DNA from: Anthostomella pinea | Taxonomy: Eukaryota > Ascomycota > Sordariomycetes > Xylariales > Xylariaceae | DNA length: 64,000 nucleotides | Assembly: GCA_963556695.1 (NCBI GenBank) | Contig: CAUWAG010000010.1 | Location: 4,216,001-4,280,000 of the forward strand | Direction: 5' to 3' | Part shown: positions 32,711-50,889 of the stretch, piece by piece | Layout: the number at the start of each line of letters is the position of its first letter | How positions within the stretch are numbered: the stretch's first letter is position 1 | Program-made: the position numbers and the translations under genes | Notes under the pieces: generated by a model | The model's input: only the letters and a program-made list of their open reading frames with translations | The model's database searches: none | What the model was told of the DNA's origin: nothing

Positions 32711-35700
32711 CTACTGCTGCCCATTGTGCATCGTAGACCCGTTCTCGAAGCTCGGGTACGCACCGCCCATGAACTCGGCCCAGTCCCAGTCAAGCGTCAT
32801 GGGCAGCTGCCACAGATCTTGTGGTAATAGGGGCTGGTGGAAGCCGCCGGGCGCGCCGTTCGGACCACCCATACCGTTGGGCCCCAGCATGGCAGGTGGC
32901 GACGCCAGGGGTTGTCCGAAGCCCGTTAATTCTGAGAACGAGCCCATGTCTGACATGGCATTGGGGTCGAACTCCTGGGACGGCCAACCTCCGGGCCCAC
33001 CGCGCGGCGCTGCCCCGTTCGTCGATGTCGCCGTTTCCATCGGGCTGTAGCCCCCGTTGCCGTTCATGTTGCCGTTGTTGGCTTGACGGTTCTGCTCTCC
33101 GTTGAACTTGGGCGACAATTGTGCCACCTGCGGGTTATGGCTGTAGTTGGTTGTTGGTGTTGCGGCCGAGGACGTCGTCGGGCGTGGAGTCACTGTGAAA
33201 TGCGATGATGGAGAAGAGTGGTTGTTGTTGTTGTTGTTGTTGTTGCTCTGTTTTGAGACGTCGTTGTTCTTCCGCTTCTTCCGGGACGACGAGTCCTTCT
33301 CCGCCTTGTCGATGACAACCTTGGCGATGCGCTCGAACTCCGAGCACACGCCTAGCATACGATAGACACCACCGGTCTCGGCCTCCTCACCGAGCGTGGA
33401 GAGAAATGTCACCACTAGATTCATGAGTTTCGTATCCGATCTGGCGCGCGGATCGTGCGGGTTCTGGAGGATGTTGCCGAACAACGTCACCAGAGCAGAA
33501 ACAGGGAAATACAATATCATCCTGTTCTCGTTAGCAAGGTTGACGACGCAGGCTAGATCTGGTGTGATTACGTACCAAACACAAGAGAAGTCACCCTGTG
33601 GAATGTACTTCAGTAGAGAGATCGTTGCTCGCGCAGCAGAAGCGCATAGCGCCGCCGAGGAGAACACTCTCGGGTTCAGGGGTCTCGCATTTAGACCCTG
33701 GATAGCGTAGTTTGATAAGCGACTTGTCCAATAGCCGCGGTGGACTGACATGCGGTGGATGGTGGTAAGAGTATTGTAATAAGAGAAATGTAACATCGCA
33801 ATATGCAGTATCAACGGCGTATGCGAAGCGTTGATCTCGTGTTCCGGTCGGTAATCGATGTCAATGTTGTCCTTCCAATTCTCGAGATCCTTATCAAGTT
33901 CCCCAATCGTCTGCAGAAGCTCGCCGTTCGACAACTTGGTCGCTTTCGTCGCGTACAGTTTCTTGTAGACCTTGCTCTCGATCGATGCCAGCTCGCACAT
34001 CACTCGGAACAGGTTCATCTTCCCCTTCCCGTTAGCGAGAGGAATATTGCCAATGTGGTCGTCCGGGTCGGCATCTGGAAGCTCGACGTTCATGTCGTCG
34101 TCGTCTTGCGCCGGCGGCCGTCCGGAGCGCAGACACAAGTCCTTGTCCAACATGTAGGCGATCCAGAACACCCGTTTCCTCTGCTCAATCTCGACAGGAT
34201 TCAGGTTGAAACCACTGCCCCTCTTATGTAGGCCGATGCTATGTGACAGCCTGATGGCAGCTGCGACTAAGAGGAATGAAGGCTGGGGATTCGGCGTTCC
34301 CTGCATGAATAGAGCCATCCCGAGCAGAGCCTGTACGCTCAGCAAGTCGGTGTTGCGCATGGTCAGTTCGGAGAAGACACCCATAGCATTCTTCAAATAC
34401 GCCCACGCCTTCTCATCCTCTTCCGCCGGCACGAGGTTACTCATAACCCTAAGCCTATGGGCGATGGCGAAGGCGCAATTCAAGCTAGCCCACCATCCAG
34501 AGCCTTCATACGGCTCGGCAGAATACTGCATCTCGACGAGGTGCATGAACGTGGGCTGGTGGAATAGCGGGAACATGCAGTTGAAGTTCTCAAAGTAATC
34601 TTTGAGGAGAGACAGAGCCTCTGCCTTTGGCGGCAAGGGCCGGAATATCGGACGGTGGAAAAGGTCAGCAAAGACTTCGGGTTTCCAGTGGTTCCACTTG
34701 TGATCGTCGAGCGAGACTTCTGAGATCATTTGCTGGAATGATGTGTCCCCCGTTCTATCATTCACCCACTGGATGCCTTTGGGCGAGAAAATAGAGAACC
34801 CAGACGAAGATCCTGCTACGCGTTAGCTAGAGCGCACAATACGGAATAGGCCGGCATACCGATATATCTCGTCTCGCCAGAATTGTTTGTTACCAGCGAA
34901 CACATCATCTCCGACAGGGCCGACACTTCTTCCTCACCTCCATGGCCTTCCGGGTTGGGAGACTGGTCCCTCCTGTAGTCTCGATCTTTGGCTGGCTCGG
35001 GCGAAGTTAATGAACTTCGAGGTGTCGAGACAGTGCCGTCTTGAAAGCCTGACGTTTGCGAGGGTGATGTGGGATTCGATTGTGGTACATGAGAGGCACT
35101 TCTCGATTGTTGGTTTTTCTCGGCGAGGCGCCTTTCCAAAGTAGCGAGATCGGTCGATTCGTCGTCGTCTCCGAGGAGTCCTTCGGCAAGTGTGTCAGCT
35201 GAAGTCCGGAGAATGGGCTAAAGCTGAAACGATCCGGCGCATCGCAGACGGGCAGTTGGGCACTTACCAGATAACCTGAGCAGGCTCTCCATACGTCCCA
35301 GGCGGTTCTCGAGACCCTCGATGTATTTGGCTCTGGGTTCATCGCATTAGCCAAGCAAGCAGGAAGCAGTCGACGTGAGTAATCACCGTACCCTTTCGGA
35401 GGACTCCTCTTCTTCTCGACCTGTGTAAAGACACATTCCGTCTTGTAATTGATGCAATGCGTGCAGGCGGGCATCTTGCCGTCGCACTTGATCTTCTTCT
35501 TCCGGCACATGTCGCAGGCCTGCACTGCGATCAGTATTCCTAACCAGCGTCGTTGGCTTGAATATGCTCACCCGCGCGATCCTCCTCCGCTTTGCCTCGT
35601 TCGCATCGTCAAGCAGCGACGATGGGTCGAAGCCCATCTGAGCGGCCAGCTCGGGTGGTAGTACAGACATGCCGTCGTGACCGTATGCTCCGAATATCTG

Positions 35701-43392: not shown

Positions 43393-44277
43393 ATGGGCTC
43401 AGAAAAGGCCAGCAGCCCCCGCTGGGCGGCGTTCGCGCGGGACACGAACGAGACCAAGATTCAGCTGGCGCTGAACCTGGACGGCGGCGCATTCCCGCCC
43501 GAGACAGACGCGAAGCTGAAGTCGGCCGCCGAGGAGGGACACGCGAGCCAGGCCAGCAAGTCGCAGACCATCAGCGTGAACACGGGCATCGGCTTCCTGG
43601 ACCACATGCTGCACGCGCTGGCGAAACACGCCGGCTGGAGTCTGGCGCTGGCGTGCCAGGGCGACCTGCACAGTACGTTATGACTACCTACTCTCCGTAA
43701 CTGCCTTCTTTGATCTACATATATACGAAGATCTGGGTGGTGGACGGGGGGTGCTACCTCTCCGCCGGGCCTCAGAATCATACCTCACATCTACATACAC
43801 CCCAGCCGAGCCCTCCCTCCCGCCGCAGAACAAAGCAACCGCTAACCCGCGCCCCCACGCACAGTCGACGACCACCACACCGCCGAAGACGTCTGCATCG
43901 CGCTCGGGTCGGCCTTCGCCCGCTCCCTCGGCAGCGCGACAGGGCTAGCGCGCTTCGGGTCGGCCTACGCACCTCTAGACGAGGCGCTCTCGCGCGCCGT
44001 GGTGGACTTATCGAACCGGCCGTTCAGCATCGTGGACTTGGGGTTAAAGCGCGAGAAGATCGGCGACCTGAGCTGCGAGATGATTCCGCACTGCCTGCAG
44101 AGCTTCGCGCAGGCCGCGCGCGTCACGATCCACGTCGACTGCCTGCGCGGCGACAACGACCACCACCGCGCCGAGAGCGCCTTCAAGGCCCTGGCCGTCG
44201 CCGTGCGCATGGCTACGGCTCGCGTGCCGGGGCGCGAGGGCGAGGTGCCGAGTACGAAGGGGACGCTGAGTGTGTAG
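43393..44277 (+). CDS. HIS3: imidazoleglycerol-phosphate dehydratase
   Basis: Catalyses dehydration of imidazole glycerol phosphate to imidazole acetol phosphate, the sixth step of histidine synthesis; a Mn-dependent cytosolic enzyme. Two exons, 43393-43672 and 43865-44277, join across a 192-nt intron (GTACGT donor, GCACAG acceptor) to give 230 residues, normal for fungi. Conserved parts are [16 protein letters not shown] (about 64-79), the metal-binding [14 protein letters not shown] directly after the intron (from about 95), the second His cluster [18 protein letters not shown], and the C-terminal STKGTLS. All metal ligands are present, so it should be active. The intron is long compared with its neighbours. 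It shares its promoter region with LOC1. Confidence 0.98.
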
Positions 44278-45306
44278 GGATGTGGGGTCAATAGAAATAC
44301 AAATTGTAAAATCTCGACAATACGAAGACAGTCAAATGTTGTTTGCTTGATTTCCCGGGAAAATGGGAATGAGATGGGATGGATGGTCTGTGTGCCATCT
44401 TTCTTCGTGCAGATAGATGTCTGCCTTTCCAAAGGACCGGTTTACGTCTACAGGTTTCACATCTGGTCCACGTGCTTGGAGCCCAGAGAAACGGACTGTT
44501 GGCCATTATCTTTCTAGGTCATGTCTCATTTCGAGATCCAGTCGTGGGGGTTTTGTATGACGACCTAGATACGCGCGTCTGATACCGAGATGTATATAAG
44601 GTCAATAGAATCGCATAGTATCGATCGCATCTGGTATCAATATGTACGTATAGTATCGGATGGTTTCGGATGGTCTTGTGTGATATCGGATCAACTTCTC
44701 AGCACAAGAATTCTCGCTGTGTATTGGCACCATGGCCGTCGACCGATGTGTACCGCTTTCGTGTAGGATATATTACCACCACCAAAACGTATTGAGCAGC
44801 ACTAGTAAGAAAACGCCCTTATTGTGTTAGCCTGTCCAATCTGCATCGCCGGATCCATTTGCTGATTTTGATTTATTTCACCATTCTGCCGAGATCTCAA
44901 AACAAGAACAAGCTTCATTCCATCGGATGACTTGTGATGAAGAATTGATATGTCAAAGAACATCCTTTTCTGTTTGTTGGTTGGACAAGGTATCGGAGGA
45001 AGTTACACCAGAGACAAGAACTCCCCAGGTCAAGATCGAGACTAATAGTTAACGAGTTATCATTAGGCATTATATATAGCTAGGCAATAGACCGGGGAAT
45101 CATGTTGCTACATATATGTACAAAACTTTTCGCAGTTTCGTTTTCTCATATGTCGCCAAGAGAAGGTCGTTCGACATTAGAAGCCAAATGGGCAGCGTTA
45201 CAAGCCCCAAGTCAATGCGCAAATCAGTTCCTGTAGCGGTTCGATAAAATTGGGTATCTGGCAATCCTACACATACAATTTGAGTATCGAAAAAGAGGTT
45301 GTTTGT
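44278..45306. other. intergenic region, convergent 3' ends
   Basis: About 1 kb between the stops of HIS3 (+) and the MARVEL-type gene (-). It should hold both 3' UTRs. I see no gene, repeat or tRNA in it. Confidence 0.6.
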
Positions 45307-46206
45307 TTAGGAGCCGTATCGGTACCCAGCGGGCTGAGAAAGGTTCTGAGCCACGCCAGTTTCGGGGTACGCAGTCTGGCCGTCGTGGTTGAAGACGTGG
45401 CCCTCGCGGTCGAAGCCGTTAGTATCGCCATGCTTGTTGCTGTATAGGTGGGGCTCATTGCCAGCAATGGCAGTGCTGTCGGTGTTGTAGCTTGGACGCA
45501 CCTGGTCCGGGTGGGTGTGCGTAGGCAGAGTGTTACCGTCAGAGTCGCCAGTCTTGTTGCGGCGGAACCTGCCCATGAAACCACCTTGGCCGTAGCCAGA
45601 GGTGTAATTGTTGTTGGGGCTGGGGCCGAAGCGACGCTCCTTGCGTCGGTGGCGGACAAGAACGAACTCAACAATGGCGGAAAGCAGGAAGAAAACACTG
45701 CAGCTGTCGTTAGCGCCCAGCAGCTTGGTGTGGGGAGAGGGTATAACTTACATGGCGACGATGGAAACAGCCAGAACGGCAGTCTCCATTTGACAGATTG
45801 TTCTGTAACTGGGCAGACCATTGCCAAGCCGGTCGCCAGCAGGACGGTTGTTGCCAAAAGGAGTGTCCACGTTGCCGCGGCACGAGCTAGCACCGCCGCG
45901 ATTGGCCTGGGCCACGTAGATGAAGGCGCCGATGAAGGCGATGTCCAGAATAATGGCAATGAACGACGTGAAAGGGTGTCCCGCGAGGCAACATAGCAGT
46001 AAAAGTCCGATGAGGGTGTATATGACACCGACGCCAGCGATGCCTTCAACTGCCTTTGTCCATGTTGGCATGGGAATATTATTGTGGCGCGATGCCACGG
46101 CGAGGAAGTATGAAAAAAGCGCAAGGGCCACAGCGCAGCAGCAGAGCTGGATGCCTCGGATGAACCACTGCAGCAGCTTGAGGGCGAAACCCGATTTGGC
46201 TCCCAT
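45307..46206 (-). CDS. MARVEL-type four-helix membrane protein
   Basis: Two exons, 46206-45752 and 45697-45307, join in phase (54-nt intron, GTAAGT donor, CTGCAG acceptor) to give 281 residues. Four membrane segments fall near residues 8-37, 52-75, 80-98 and 142-166, the last one split by the intron. This is the MARVEL-type layout found in fungal plasma-membrane or vesicle proteins. The second loop is Cys/Gly/Asn-rich (SSCRGNVDTPFGNNRPAGDR). The C-terminal 110 residues are hydrophilic, rich in Asn, His, Gly and Tyr, ending AGYRYGS, and probably cytoplasmic. The start before GAKSGFALK gives a short N-terminus typical of the family; an in-frame ATG 93 nt upstream is less likely. Specific role unknown. 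Confidence 0.85.
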
Positions 46207-47028
46207 GTTGGCGGTTCTCGTGCGATGTGTGTGGGTGCGGAAAGTCGTACTCGTATCGTGGGCGGGTGTACCCTCGGTTGGTTGTGGTTTGTTGTCCAAG
46301 CTTCAGATGTGTGTGTGAGAGAGAGTATGGGAGAATAATGAAAAGTGGGAGGGAGAGGATGTAAACTTGTAATTAATAACGGAAGAATGGAACAGGGTGG
46401 CCCTAAAAACCTTGGAAGGAGCCGATCATAGATGAATGAGATGATGGAGGAGATTTCATGTTGATCGTGGGATATTAAGGTGTCTTGGACGGAGTTGCTA
46501 GCTCTGAATCCGCCAGTTTGTGAGGCGTGCTAAGGAAGCTTCGAAGACGATGACGAAAGATGCGCCGCGCAACAACCTAACACTTTCAAGGTTTATCGTC
46601 CTTTCTTCATTCTTCAAACCTGCCGGAAACAGTCTGTTCGAAACCCTGGTCACCTGACTAGCAGTCGCAAACGCGGCGGGGAGTCGCCCCTCGCTGACGT
46701 CTGCTGCTTCCAGGTTGCATCAGCCCAGCTCGCCAGGTGCGGCGGGGTGCGGCAGGGCCTGTTCCCCGCAGCCCTGCCGCAGCATGACATCAAGCACCGA
46801 CAGGGGTTCGACTCAGTCAATTCTCCGATTTGCTCGATTCTCAACAAAGCCACACCAGAGCCATACTGGCAGGGTCACGAGCCTGTGGCGGTGCTCTGCT
46901 GCATTATCCTTCTGTGCAATCGCCAATGGCAATCGTACCGAGGCACATCCTAATCCGTTACGCTATGGGATTAGGGCAGATTGGAATATGAGCCATCGCA
47001 AGACGCGCGATTTCCAACGATGTTGTTA
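46207..47028. other. intergenic region
   Basis: Promoter side of the MARVEL-type gene, then unassigned DNA up to the tRNA gene. No coding sequence is supported. A (GT)n-like run sits just before the MARVEL gene start. Confidence 0.55.
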
Positions 47029-47162
47029 GCCCCGCTGGCTTAATGGTTAAAGCATCCGACTTCTACAAATCATCATCGGAAGATTGCGAGTGTGAGGAGT
47101 CCTCCTTATTCTTCTTAAATGAATAGTTACTGACGTAATGCAGTCGAGTCTCGCGTGGGGTT
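47029..47162 (+). tRNA. tRNA-Arg(UCU), with a 9-nt anticodon-loop intron and a 52-nt T-loop insertion
   Basis: The cloverleaf is complete once two inserts are removed. The acceptor GCCCCGC pairs with GTGGGGT (two G-T pairs). The D arm is GCTT/AAGC, and the anticodon stem TCCGA/TCGGA encloses a loop with anticodon TCT at 47062-47064. Nine nucleotides at 47066-47074 sit at the normal 37/38 intron site. The variable loop is AGATT and the T stem GCGAG/CTCGC. The T-loop TTCGAGT is split after its first T by 47092-47143. That 52-nt insert starts GTGAGG, ends TGCAG, and has a TTACTGAC branch-point-like motif about 10 nt before its end. A TTTTT Pol III terminator lies 10 nt downstream (47172-47176), and none lies inside. 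The spliced RNA would be 73 nt. The insert splits the B box, so the gene may be silent. Confidence 0.8.
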
Positions 47163-48953
47163 GCTTATAACTTTTTGTTTATCATCAATCGTATCGTGAA
47201 TTGATGCTGTGGCTGACGGTCTACGGGTGTGCTGTTTCTCTCAGCCAGGCACAACATTCACATTGCTATTGAATACTCCAAAGTAGTTTTATCCACATAT
47301 CGTGAGCATGTTGATTTTTTCATTGTATTTTCCCTTGAGTCTGAGGATGCAGCGTGTTGCTCGAGAGACATAATCTATTGACGAGGTACGAACCTGTGAT
47401 CTACACCTCCCTATTCCGTGCCTGGCCTCACAACTCAGATGGATGTGGAACTGCATCAGAGGGTCGCTCACCTCGGCACATAATGTTATGACATCTCTCT
47501 CGAATCGGCGCGCTGCCGAACGGGCGTCGGCGCCTCTGCATCTGGAGCCATGGGAATTGGCATTCGCAATATCGGGGGTGCTGAGGAGCTCCTTGACGTC
47601 ATGGGCACTTGCTTAATCTCAGCTTACTACCTGTAGGGCAATTTGAGTATTTGGCCTAAGTGTCCTAATGTAGGGTGTCTTCTTACCAAGAGACGGAGTC
47701 TCCCACGCGGGCCCGAACCCTGGCCACGGCACATAGGGGAGCAGCTTGTACTGTCGCGACGAGGTTGAAGCCAGTCCGGGCGAGAGGAGTCCTTACCCCA
47801 GCCAGAACACTCATGATGCCATGGTGTTGTTAACGGGGGCCTTCAATCGTTGAGATAGGGGAGGAGGGGCATCGTGCGTAACTCTCACCCTACCAACTCC
47901 CGTCCCCCTTGGTGGTTGGCCAGCAGCTGGATTCCTCGCAGAAGGCCACCGACTGTACGGTTCCGGCTCGGGGTGTCATCTTCGTTATTAGGAGATATCT
48001 GACAGTACGGCCATGGCTCTGGGATATTATATGGTACTTTCTTGCCACCAGCGAGGTCCGAGCCATAGGTCTGGGGAAAAGAGCACCTGGATACGTCAAC
48101 TGATGGCGTCATTCTCTTACCTAGTGAAATATTCGAAGATGCGCTGCTCTCTGTGTAATATCCCCGGAAAATACAGACCTCTACCAGCCGCTAATGACAT
48201 CGATGTCCATGTGCGCAGTCTCACAACTTGTCCCTTTGATCCCGCTGCATCTGGTTGGTTGATTGCCTGCCTCTGCATGGTCGCGCTGCATGTCGGAAAG
48301 GGGTACCACATGTGTTTGCAAAATAGGGGTACTCACCTACCGGCACGTGTATTGCAGGTCAACTGAGTACATGTGGCTGTGCCTTGTGGTAGCGGTATCC
48401 AGAATAAGGACCAGGGTCACGAATGGTGGCTATTGGTCTGTATCTGGAAGTTGCTTGATTGAAAGAAGGGATGGGTGGTGTCCCCATCCCAGAAGTAGCT
48501 ATCATCCCAGTTGGGTACGAATCTGGTACAAACGGGTACCAGTTGGGCTCCAAGGTACCTTGTACCCTGGTCCGTGACCCATCCGTCATTGTGGCTGGAA
48601 AATGGGTTGAGGAGCCACATGGCACCCTGCGCAAAAGCATAAAATCGTCATGGTGGGGGTAATTACTTATCAAGGCGGCCTTTCTACCCTCAATCGCAGT
48701 CTTACAGCACTTCACAGGCACCGTTTGAGAGAGCATCATGTGAAGTATAATGATCGTTATCTGTTACAGTCTCCCTGGACCGAAATAATAGTATACATGC
48801 GCGAGTTGATTCAATCATACAAGACTTGCTCGTAATCACAGATGAGCAGTGAACGCCAAGCCGGAAAACAGCCACCGTTCCCACCCCCCATCGTATCTTT
48901 CCTCTTCATACCCTCGAGCCGCCCCTCCAGTCATACCAGCAGCTTCTCGCAAT
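47163..48953. other. intergenic region
   Basis: About 1.8 kb from the tRNA terminator to the stop of the secreted-protein gene. No coding gene is supported. Around 48490-48570 the motif GGTAC recurs several times with local inverted symmetry. Two T-arm-like strings near 47390 and 47715 do not belong to foldable tRNAs. Confidence 0.55.
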
Positions 48954-49595
48954 TCAGCAATCGCGCAGGCATACGTAGCTCTGAATCGCCTTGTTGGCGT
49001 ACTCTTGAACGGAATCAGGAAGGCCTTTGAAACACTTGTTGCCCCCGGCGTCTATGGCGGACCCCGTCTCGCCGGCTTGCACCTGGCAATTTGGGTCGGT
49101 ATACACCATGCAGTTGGTCCCGCGATTCCCATCGCCGACAGCCAGAACGCTGCCGATAGGATCCACGATCCAGGGCCCGCTCGGGTCGGTCTCGTTTTGG
49201 CGGTAGTTCTGCCTCTGGCATTCACGGTTGCACTGTAGGTATCGCATGATCGGTCAGCCAGCTGGCCATAGATAACTAGGTATCGCCACGTTCCTCGTGT
49301 GTGCACAGAGGGAAGCGTGCCAAAGGAAAGGGGGATGAGGCGGCTTGGAGAGACTGTGCTCGGGATCATAGAGCTCTGCACACTTTGGGAAGGGGGCGCT
49401 GATTACCTTGCCTGGGCCGTGTTGCGAGATTAGGGTGCTGTGTTGGCAGTCGGGTCCTGCGTAGACGTGGACGCATGCTCCGCCACCGATTCCGGGATCA
49501 CCGCAGCCGTTGCGTGCCGATAGTAGCTCGGGCATAGATGTCGCAATTCCAGCTGCGAGGAGGCTCACGACGAGGGTCTTCGTGATGGCGTACAT
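48954..49595 (-). CDS. small secreted cysteine-rich protein
   Basis: Two exons, 49595-49407 and 49232-48954, join in phase 0 (GTAATC donor; CTACAG acceptor preceded by a CTGAC branch motif) and give 155 residues. The N-terminus MYAITKTLVVSLLAAGIATS is a clear signal peptide. The mature part has ten cysteines, including NGCGDPG, ACVHVYAGPDC, CNRECQRQNY, NCMVYTDPNC, NKC and CLRDC, which suits five disulphides. There is no membrane segment or GPI signal. I recognise no family. Small size, secretion and even cysteine number fit the class of candidate effectors or antimicrobial proteins, but that is inference. The 174-nt intron is long for this window and could hide a small further exon. Confidence 0.75.
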
Positions 49596-50889
49596 CTTGT
49601 TGGTGGTGATTTCAGATACGGTTCGGGCCGGAAAGCTCAGAGTGCTGTGTTTTGATGCTTTGAGTCGTTGGTGTGACTTGGCTCGAGGAAGTGAAGTGGT
49701 GTTTGTGTTGTTGCTATTGTTGAGTTTCCGAGACCACCGACAACGTGAGTCTTGTCTGTCTTAAATATAAGAGGAGACTGGACTGTTCTCGATGACATCG
49801 TCATGTCTTCAGCGACAGGTCTTTGGCCGCACCTCGCCCTCCAAGCTCATGTTTACTATTTTCAGCCCGATCATGATGTTCCCTTACTGCCCGAAGGATG
49901 GGACTGTGGGTTGTAGACCTGAAGGGTATGATGCAAGTCTCGCGATTGTTTGCCACAGAGCAGTGTTGATTTCGGTTCACAGAGCATCTGATGATGATCT
50001 CATTGTCACCATGGGTTCTGGTGACAATCACCCTCCGCTGATGATTACATGGGGATATAATTAGATAGAGTTGACAATGTCCAGATCCGATGACGAACGT
50101 AGGAATGTGACGATGGTGCTGGTTTCTGTAATCGGCTTTGGTCGGTGACGATGGTTGCAAAGCACCTGACCCATGTTACTATTGCCCGGCGCCGTGACGG
50201 CCGAAGGCCGATACTGCGTTGCCTCTCGGGCTGCTTCCATCACTTGAGTACAGTTATATAAAAGCCATTAGTCGGGGCGCGGCATTTATTACATGCGTCG
50301 TGAACCTACCAGGTGGATCTGGTGATCCTGCCTCAGCCTTGCCTGCTTGACAAGGTACTATTTACAGCTAGCCACTCCTTCGCAACAGTAGCTTGTTCCC
50401 ACCAAGCCAGGTTCCGCAGCCTTCTTGCTGAGATAGCTCGACCATGTTGCTTGCTTGACCTGCGGACACCTTGTCGTTTTCATGTCACATCTTCCACCTC
50501 GAGCTGATGTGATTTCTGCATTCATACTCGGGTAATCGGCCCCAAGAAGGTCGAGTAGATACCTTGTAAGGTGCGGACACCTTCATGTGGTATCAACTAC
50601 GTAGCTACTCAGACGTTGCGTTCGGTTCGTCAACCGGTCTTTCGTTGCGATCGTCACGTGCCATTTCCCACGTTTGTTGCCATCCCCCGTGCCAACGCCA
50701 AGTACTTGGATGCGGCTCCGAAAGTGACACTCCCGAGGTCCCTATGGCCTTGAGCCTGTTCACAAGATGTCGTAACCATCGTACAGTCGTAGCTGAGGGA
50801 GCTAGACGTGCGCAGTATCAAGATGGCCATTGGGTTGACGTCCTTGCTAAGGTCAAATTTGAATTTGGTTGGGTCGTTGCCTTGCGCCA
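49596..50889. other. intergenic region
   Basis: Promoter region of the secreted-protein gene on the left and 3' region of CENP-S on the right. Short open stretches on both strands near 49800-50160 and 50570-50750 resemble nothing known. No repeat or RNA gene was seen. Confidence 0.55.

Follow-up and report, generated by a model that had tools for sequence, protein, structure and literature searches.

Spliceosomal introns occur chiefly in Pol II genes, and among the small structured RNAs U6 and U3 are the named exceptions, being the only ones known to be often interrupted by introns according to PMC5832005. In fission yeast the U6 gene contains an mRNA-type intron situated close to the catalytic nucleotides of the RNA, for which PMC10484740 proposes an origin by reverse splicing. 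The U6 promoter of Trichoderma reesei has been used together with its first intron (PMC9518982). The introns of tRNA genes in the red alga Cyanidioschyzon merolae lie at positions 12/13, 37/38 and 53/54 and are associated with hBHBh' motifs (PMC9602550). An earlier note on the DNA analyzed here held that the T-loop is not a site of introns in eukaryotic nuclear tRNAs, which the C. merolae intron at 53/54 contradicts. A literature search, with most subscription journals lying outside it, turned up no tRNA gene reported to have a spliceosomal intron. In the window, a 64,000-nucleotide stretch of Anthostomella pinea DNA, lies a nuclear tRNA-Arg(UCU) gene that probably acquired a U2-type spliceosomal intron between T54 and T55.

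The gene gives a 73-nt tRNA only when two segments are taken out, and here the earlier note was accurate in its coordinates and sequence. With introns allowed, ARAGORN detected no tRNA while the 52-nt insert was present, and reported tRNA-Arg(tct) of 73 bases with a 9-nt intron once it had been removed. The 9-nt intron noted after position 37 is borne out, ARAGORN placing it one base off the 37/38 convention. Over the whole window, ARAGORN with bacterial settings called no tRNA, and there was no Rfam match above the cut-offs. In the joined form every stem is fully paired (acceptor 7 pairs, D 4, anticodon 5, T 5), the conserved bases of the D-, anticodon- and T-loops are all intact, and the A-box of a functional tRNA-Arg(UCU) gene is present; there is no sign of decay in the tRNA body. 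The minimum-energy fold of the joined mature form is the cloverleaf, at -26.7 kcal/mol, whereas its shuffles average -19.86 (z -2.26). The unspliced 145-nt stretch folds no more stably than its shuffles (z -0.51), and with the insert in place the acceptor and T-stem are still paired in the predicted fold around a swollen T-loop. Like other eukaryotic tRNA genes with a canonical 37/38 intron, this gene has one too, but the 52-nt insert lies elsewhere and is longer than the 7-28 nt that ARAGORN reports for the introns of the other tRNAs examined in the genome.

Table 1. Features of the interrupted tRNA-Arg(UCU) gene (window positions) and of the interrupted U6 gene of the same genome (positions in locus L078)
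Feature	Position	Strand	Basis or remark
tRNA-Arg(UCU) gene, three exons	47029-47162	+	sequence, ARAGORN
Exon 1, positions 1-37: acceptor 5' strand, D-arm with A-box TGGCTTAATGG, anticodon UCU	47029-47065	+	ARAGORN on joined sequence, A-box match, D-stem pairs 4/4
Canonical 9-nt tRNA intron CAAATCATC, after position 37	47066-47074	+	ARAGORN
Exon 2, positions 38-54: anticodon stem 3' strand, variable loop, T-stem 5' strand GCGAG, T54	47075-47091	+	ARAGORN, fold
52-nt T-loop insert between T54 and T55, putative U2-type spliceosomal intron	47092-47143	+	splice-signal score and control, intron comparison, single locus
Insert donor GTGAGG	47092-47097	+	
Insert branch-site match TACTGAC	47128-47134	+	
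Insert acceptor GCAG	47140-47143	+	
Exon 3, T55 to discriminator: TCGAGT, T-stem CTCGC, acceptor GTGGGGT, T73	47144-47162	+	ARAGORN, fold, alignment
TTTTT, possible Pol III terminator	47172-47176	+	sequence
U6 intron-like segment 1, 49 nt	L078:1538-1586		branch-site match CTGAC, 12 nt after A
U6 intron-like segment 2, 55 nt	L078:1621-1675		branch-site match CTAAT, 10 nt after A
U6 intron-like segment 3, 53 nt	L078:1689-1741		branch-site match CTAAC, 12 nt after A

The edges of the insert are fixed independently, and without slack, by the T-loop TTCGAGT, and as previously noted they are those of an intron, with GT at 47092-47093 and AG at 47142-47143; removal of this GT-AG segment restores a consensus tRNA exactly. 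The signals follow one another as GTGAGG...TACTGAC...GCAG. The fungal-intron layout described in the earlier note thus stands for the edges, the branch-site match and the acceptor, but the pyrimidine-rich tract lies upstream of the branch-site match and not between the match and the acceptor. The match to the CTRAY branch-site consensus is followed by 10 nt after its A, compared with 10-12 nt in U6 introns of the same genome and 10-22 nt in 22 predicted coding introns picked by a rule requiring a branch site at 8-28 nt. In length, too, the insert falls among the U6 introns (49-55 nt) and the predicted coding introns, which include lengths of 49-54 nt. The splice grammar of the predicted coding introns is similar to that of the insert. 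A first script picked 10 of them and a looser one 46, both selecting on splice signals, and they describe the grammar without being independent proof of it; the lowest-ranked of the 46 look like chance. The window also holds, at 43393-44277 on the plus strand, an imidazoleglycerol-phosphate dehydratase (HIS3-like) gene identified by eye. Its intron, placed by eye at 43673-43864 (GTACGT...ACAG), is longer than most of those predicted, and the script chose another end for it.

How often would such a segment arise by chance? For donor, branch site and acceptor together the insert scores 8.0 by a simple rule written, after the insert had been seen, from the general fungal consensus. Among the 167,688 52-mers that the window and the adjoining 20 kb (84 kb of genome) yield on their two strands, 597 are GT..AG and two score 8.0 or more; one of the two is the insert, and the other appears to be a predicted coding intron on the minus strand of the window at 35520. 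With the donor fixed and any length from 42 to 120 nt allowed, such an intron begins at 71 of 127,740 window positions, a figure that takes in real introns. When 1,634 intron-like GT-AG segments (score at least 7) in 329 kb of sequence were removed singly, a tRNA spanning the junction resulted in 13 cases, namely the gene described here and a mitochondrial artefact, the joining of two neighboring tRNA genes, that recurs in 12 copies. The 52-mer and joining controls make it very unlikely that the insert is a functionless chance insertion or an assembly artefact with accidentally intron-like edges, a reading that its occurrence at a single locus would otherwise suit; intron grammar at the exact T-loop edges would hardly be expected of an assembly error. 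The donor could be drawn into a 7-bp hairpin inside the intron, though the insert folds no more stably than its shuffles (z -0.20). On the strength of its edges and internal signals, the insert is very probably a spliceosomal-type intron.

The closest tRNA counterpart is the T-intron of C. merolae tRNA-Ile(UAU), at 53/54, which is likewise an additional T-loop intron in a nuclear tRNA gene that also has a 37/38 intron, as described in PMC9602550. A BHB-type intron removed by the tRNA endonuclease from a non-canonical place, with GT..AG edges by chance, therefore has a eukaryotic precedent. Unlike the C. merolae T-intron as characterized there, the insert lies one position further along, at 54/55, has GT-AG edges and a branch-site match, and lacks a BHB: when bulges of 2-4 nt flanking a 4-bp middle helix were sought at the two junctions, no arrangement fitted. 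The lack of a fitting geometry led us to reject BHB-type splicing, and since GT-AG ends with all splice signals are as rare at a fixed place as the 52-mer control indicates, we regard such an intron as extremely improbable here.

The U6 genes of the same genome offer a nearer parallel to the spliceosomal-type intron. An Rfam search, with 47 of 2,591 candidates scored, gave at least nine U6 matches, one of which (C16:2508026; L078:1501-1780) has a canonical core only after three GT-AG segments are removed. The joined sequence, ACAGAG/AAGATTAGCATGG...GATGACAC/GCTCAATCAAAGA/GAAGC (slashes at the junctions), agrees with the Rfam consensus; with its introns in, the form that was scored, the gene reaches 39.9 bits, below the cut-off of 44. 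An uninterrupted U6-like gene (L076) scores 65.5 bits and departs from the consensus after ACAGAGA, and U6 splicing is therefore likely, although not proven, to be needed in this genome. Introns 1 and 2 of the interrupted U6 gene have the pieces CCCGAGT, GTCCAA and the branch-site match in common, in this order, and look as though they were related to each other. L076, L077 and L079 (C4:1043101, C2:7777208 and C16:2928728) are U6-like sequences without introns that are off consensus and are then followed by a T-run, and L076 starts in a tandem repeat with the 20-base unit CCCACGAGAGTGGTGGCATA. Like the U6 introns of fission yeast and other fungi, including the three in this genome, the tRNA insert is short, of the spliceosomal type and situated in a small structured Pol III RNA; unlike them, it has a tRNA as host and also splits the internal promoter. 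By analogy, the three U6 introns, of the same size and grammar as the insert, make its removal by the spliceosome plausible. Fungal U3 snoRNA introns are also of the spliceosomal type and in a non-coding RNA gene, but their host is not a tRNA. The two U3 matches of this genome that span the whole 274-position model (C2:2094376 and C14:739964) are 281 and 262 bases long, so that neither has room inside it for such an intron.

A query of the 171-base stretch found this locus only, and so did a 30-base piece from the insert when three or fewer mismatches were allowed. An introner-like element would require several near-identical copies; neither this reading, put forward in the earlier note, nor that of an ordinary repeat is supported, since no second copy was found. 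The spliceosomal reading of the earlier note is supported in part, by the intron-like anatomy (edges, branch site, length, no BHB, no second copy) and by the U6 precedent. A copy of another tRNA gene is rejected too, a DNA search with the joined 84-nt tRNA sequence having matched this locus alone, as two pieces. Two patterns running from a split T-loop to the acceptor, which are limited to a single insertion place and a small set of branch-site forms, gave 14 and 29 matches, the insert-bearing gene being among the 14. None of the 42 others, all of which were inspected, proved to be a split tRNA; the T-stem is paired at 4 of 5 positions in three of them, with no more than 5 of 7 acceptor pairs. 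In prokaryote and viral collections the 5' half of the gene found nothing, and the joined T-arm pattern found one unrelated tRNA-Pro on a viral contig.

A pattern for the 5' half of tRNA-Arg(UCU), with no mismatch allowed, had 36 matches, five of which have a full D-stem: the insert-bearing gene, a nuclear gene on C2 that is intact, and the mitochondrial gene with its two further copies on C15 and C16. The intact nuclear gene (C2:8468306-8468395; L040) has an 18-nt canonical intron and is of a clearly different sequence type. The insert-bearing gene as sole gene for AGA decoding was rejected on finding it, and AGA decoding need not depend on the insert-bearing gene. The Rfam tRNA search scored 63 of 2,100 candidates and is no full tRNA census. 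As a separate observation, the 32,605-base contig C1 looks mitochondrial, with the tRNA order E-M-M-L-A-F-L-Q-H-M, which we take to be typical of Sordariomycetes mitochondria. Stretches on C2, C9, C13, C15 and C16 have tRNA clusters very similar to those of C1 and are probably nuclear copies of mitochondrial DNA.

The insert divides the B-box. Its 3' half keeps TCGAGTC, now preceded by CAG, and no intact B-box of the form GWTCRANNC is present on either strand in 46900-47500; an intact B-box is usual in a functional tRNA-Arg(UCU) gene, although other promoters can serve. The interrupted U6 locus, for comparison, has GGTTCGAACC downstream of the gene. The TTTTT that had been reported after the tRNA is there. 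A broken B-box and an intact tRNA-Arg(UCU) gene on C2 to do the work are what a young pseudogene would present, whether it gained a real intron or received an intron-like insertion, and the donor is weak against the consensus at two places, with T at the exon end (-1) and G at +6. Such a gene, dead but recently so, would have to have escaped substitution in every stem and conserved base and to have kept the full splice grammar in its insert. Nor is it a recent dead copy of the C2 gene or of the tRNA-Arg(CCU) gene, because only 57 and 52 of 73 alignment columns, respectively, are identical. The pseudogene reading of the earlier note is consequently strengthened by the intact, divergent gene on C2 and weakened by the undecayed tRNA body, and we judge it unlikely, if the most serious of the rivals. 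Around the gene, putative minus-strand genes lie at about 45267-46302 and 48954-49760, as read from the stop-to-stop listing. Just upstream, two plus-strand frames of 139 and 123 amino acids (46534-46953 and 46658-47029) are without coding evidence.

How might a tRNA interrupted by a spliceosomal-type intron mature? The precursor would be made by Pol III from the A-box and the damaged B-box, or by Pol II; a Pol II transcript running through the tRNA may offer the precursor a second route to the spliceosome. The spliceosome would remove the 52-nt intron, as in fission-yeast U6, and only then would a normal T-loop be available for the elbow, RNase P, RNase Z and modifying enzymes. The 9-nt intron would be removed by the tRNA endonuclease by the ordinary route. 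That the gene is transcribed and its intron spliced at all seems reasonably likely from the sequence. That the tRNA matures through two splicing machines, the spliceosome acting on the T-loop GT-AG intron and the tRNA endonuclease on the 37/38 intron, to yield a working tRNA is a further step that we propose tentatively, as a real possibility. All of these gradings are judgements and were not computed. Reverse splicing into the exposed T-loop, with reverse transcription as the next step, could account for the presence of the intron; PMC10484740 puts forward such an origin for the U6 intron of fission yeast. There, closeness to the catalytic nucleotides explains reverse splicing into U6, and this closeness is absent for a tRNA.

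If the spliceosomal reading is true, spliceosomal introns would extend to tRNA, among the most conserved classes of RNA, and the spliceosome would be shown to act on a tRNA precursor. The production of tRNA-Arg(UCU) from this gene would then be tied to spliceosome activity. The locus would also allow ideas on the entry of introns into RNA genes to be tested on a natural case, in a host to which the explanation offered for U6, closeness to the catalytic nucleotides, would not apply.
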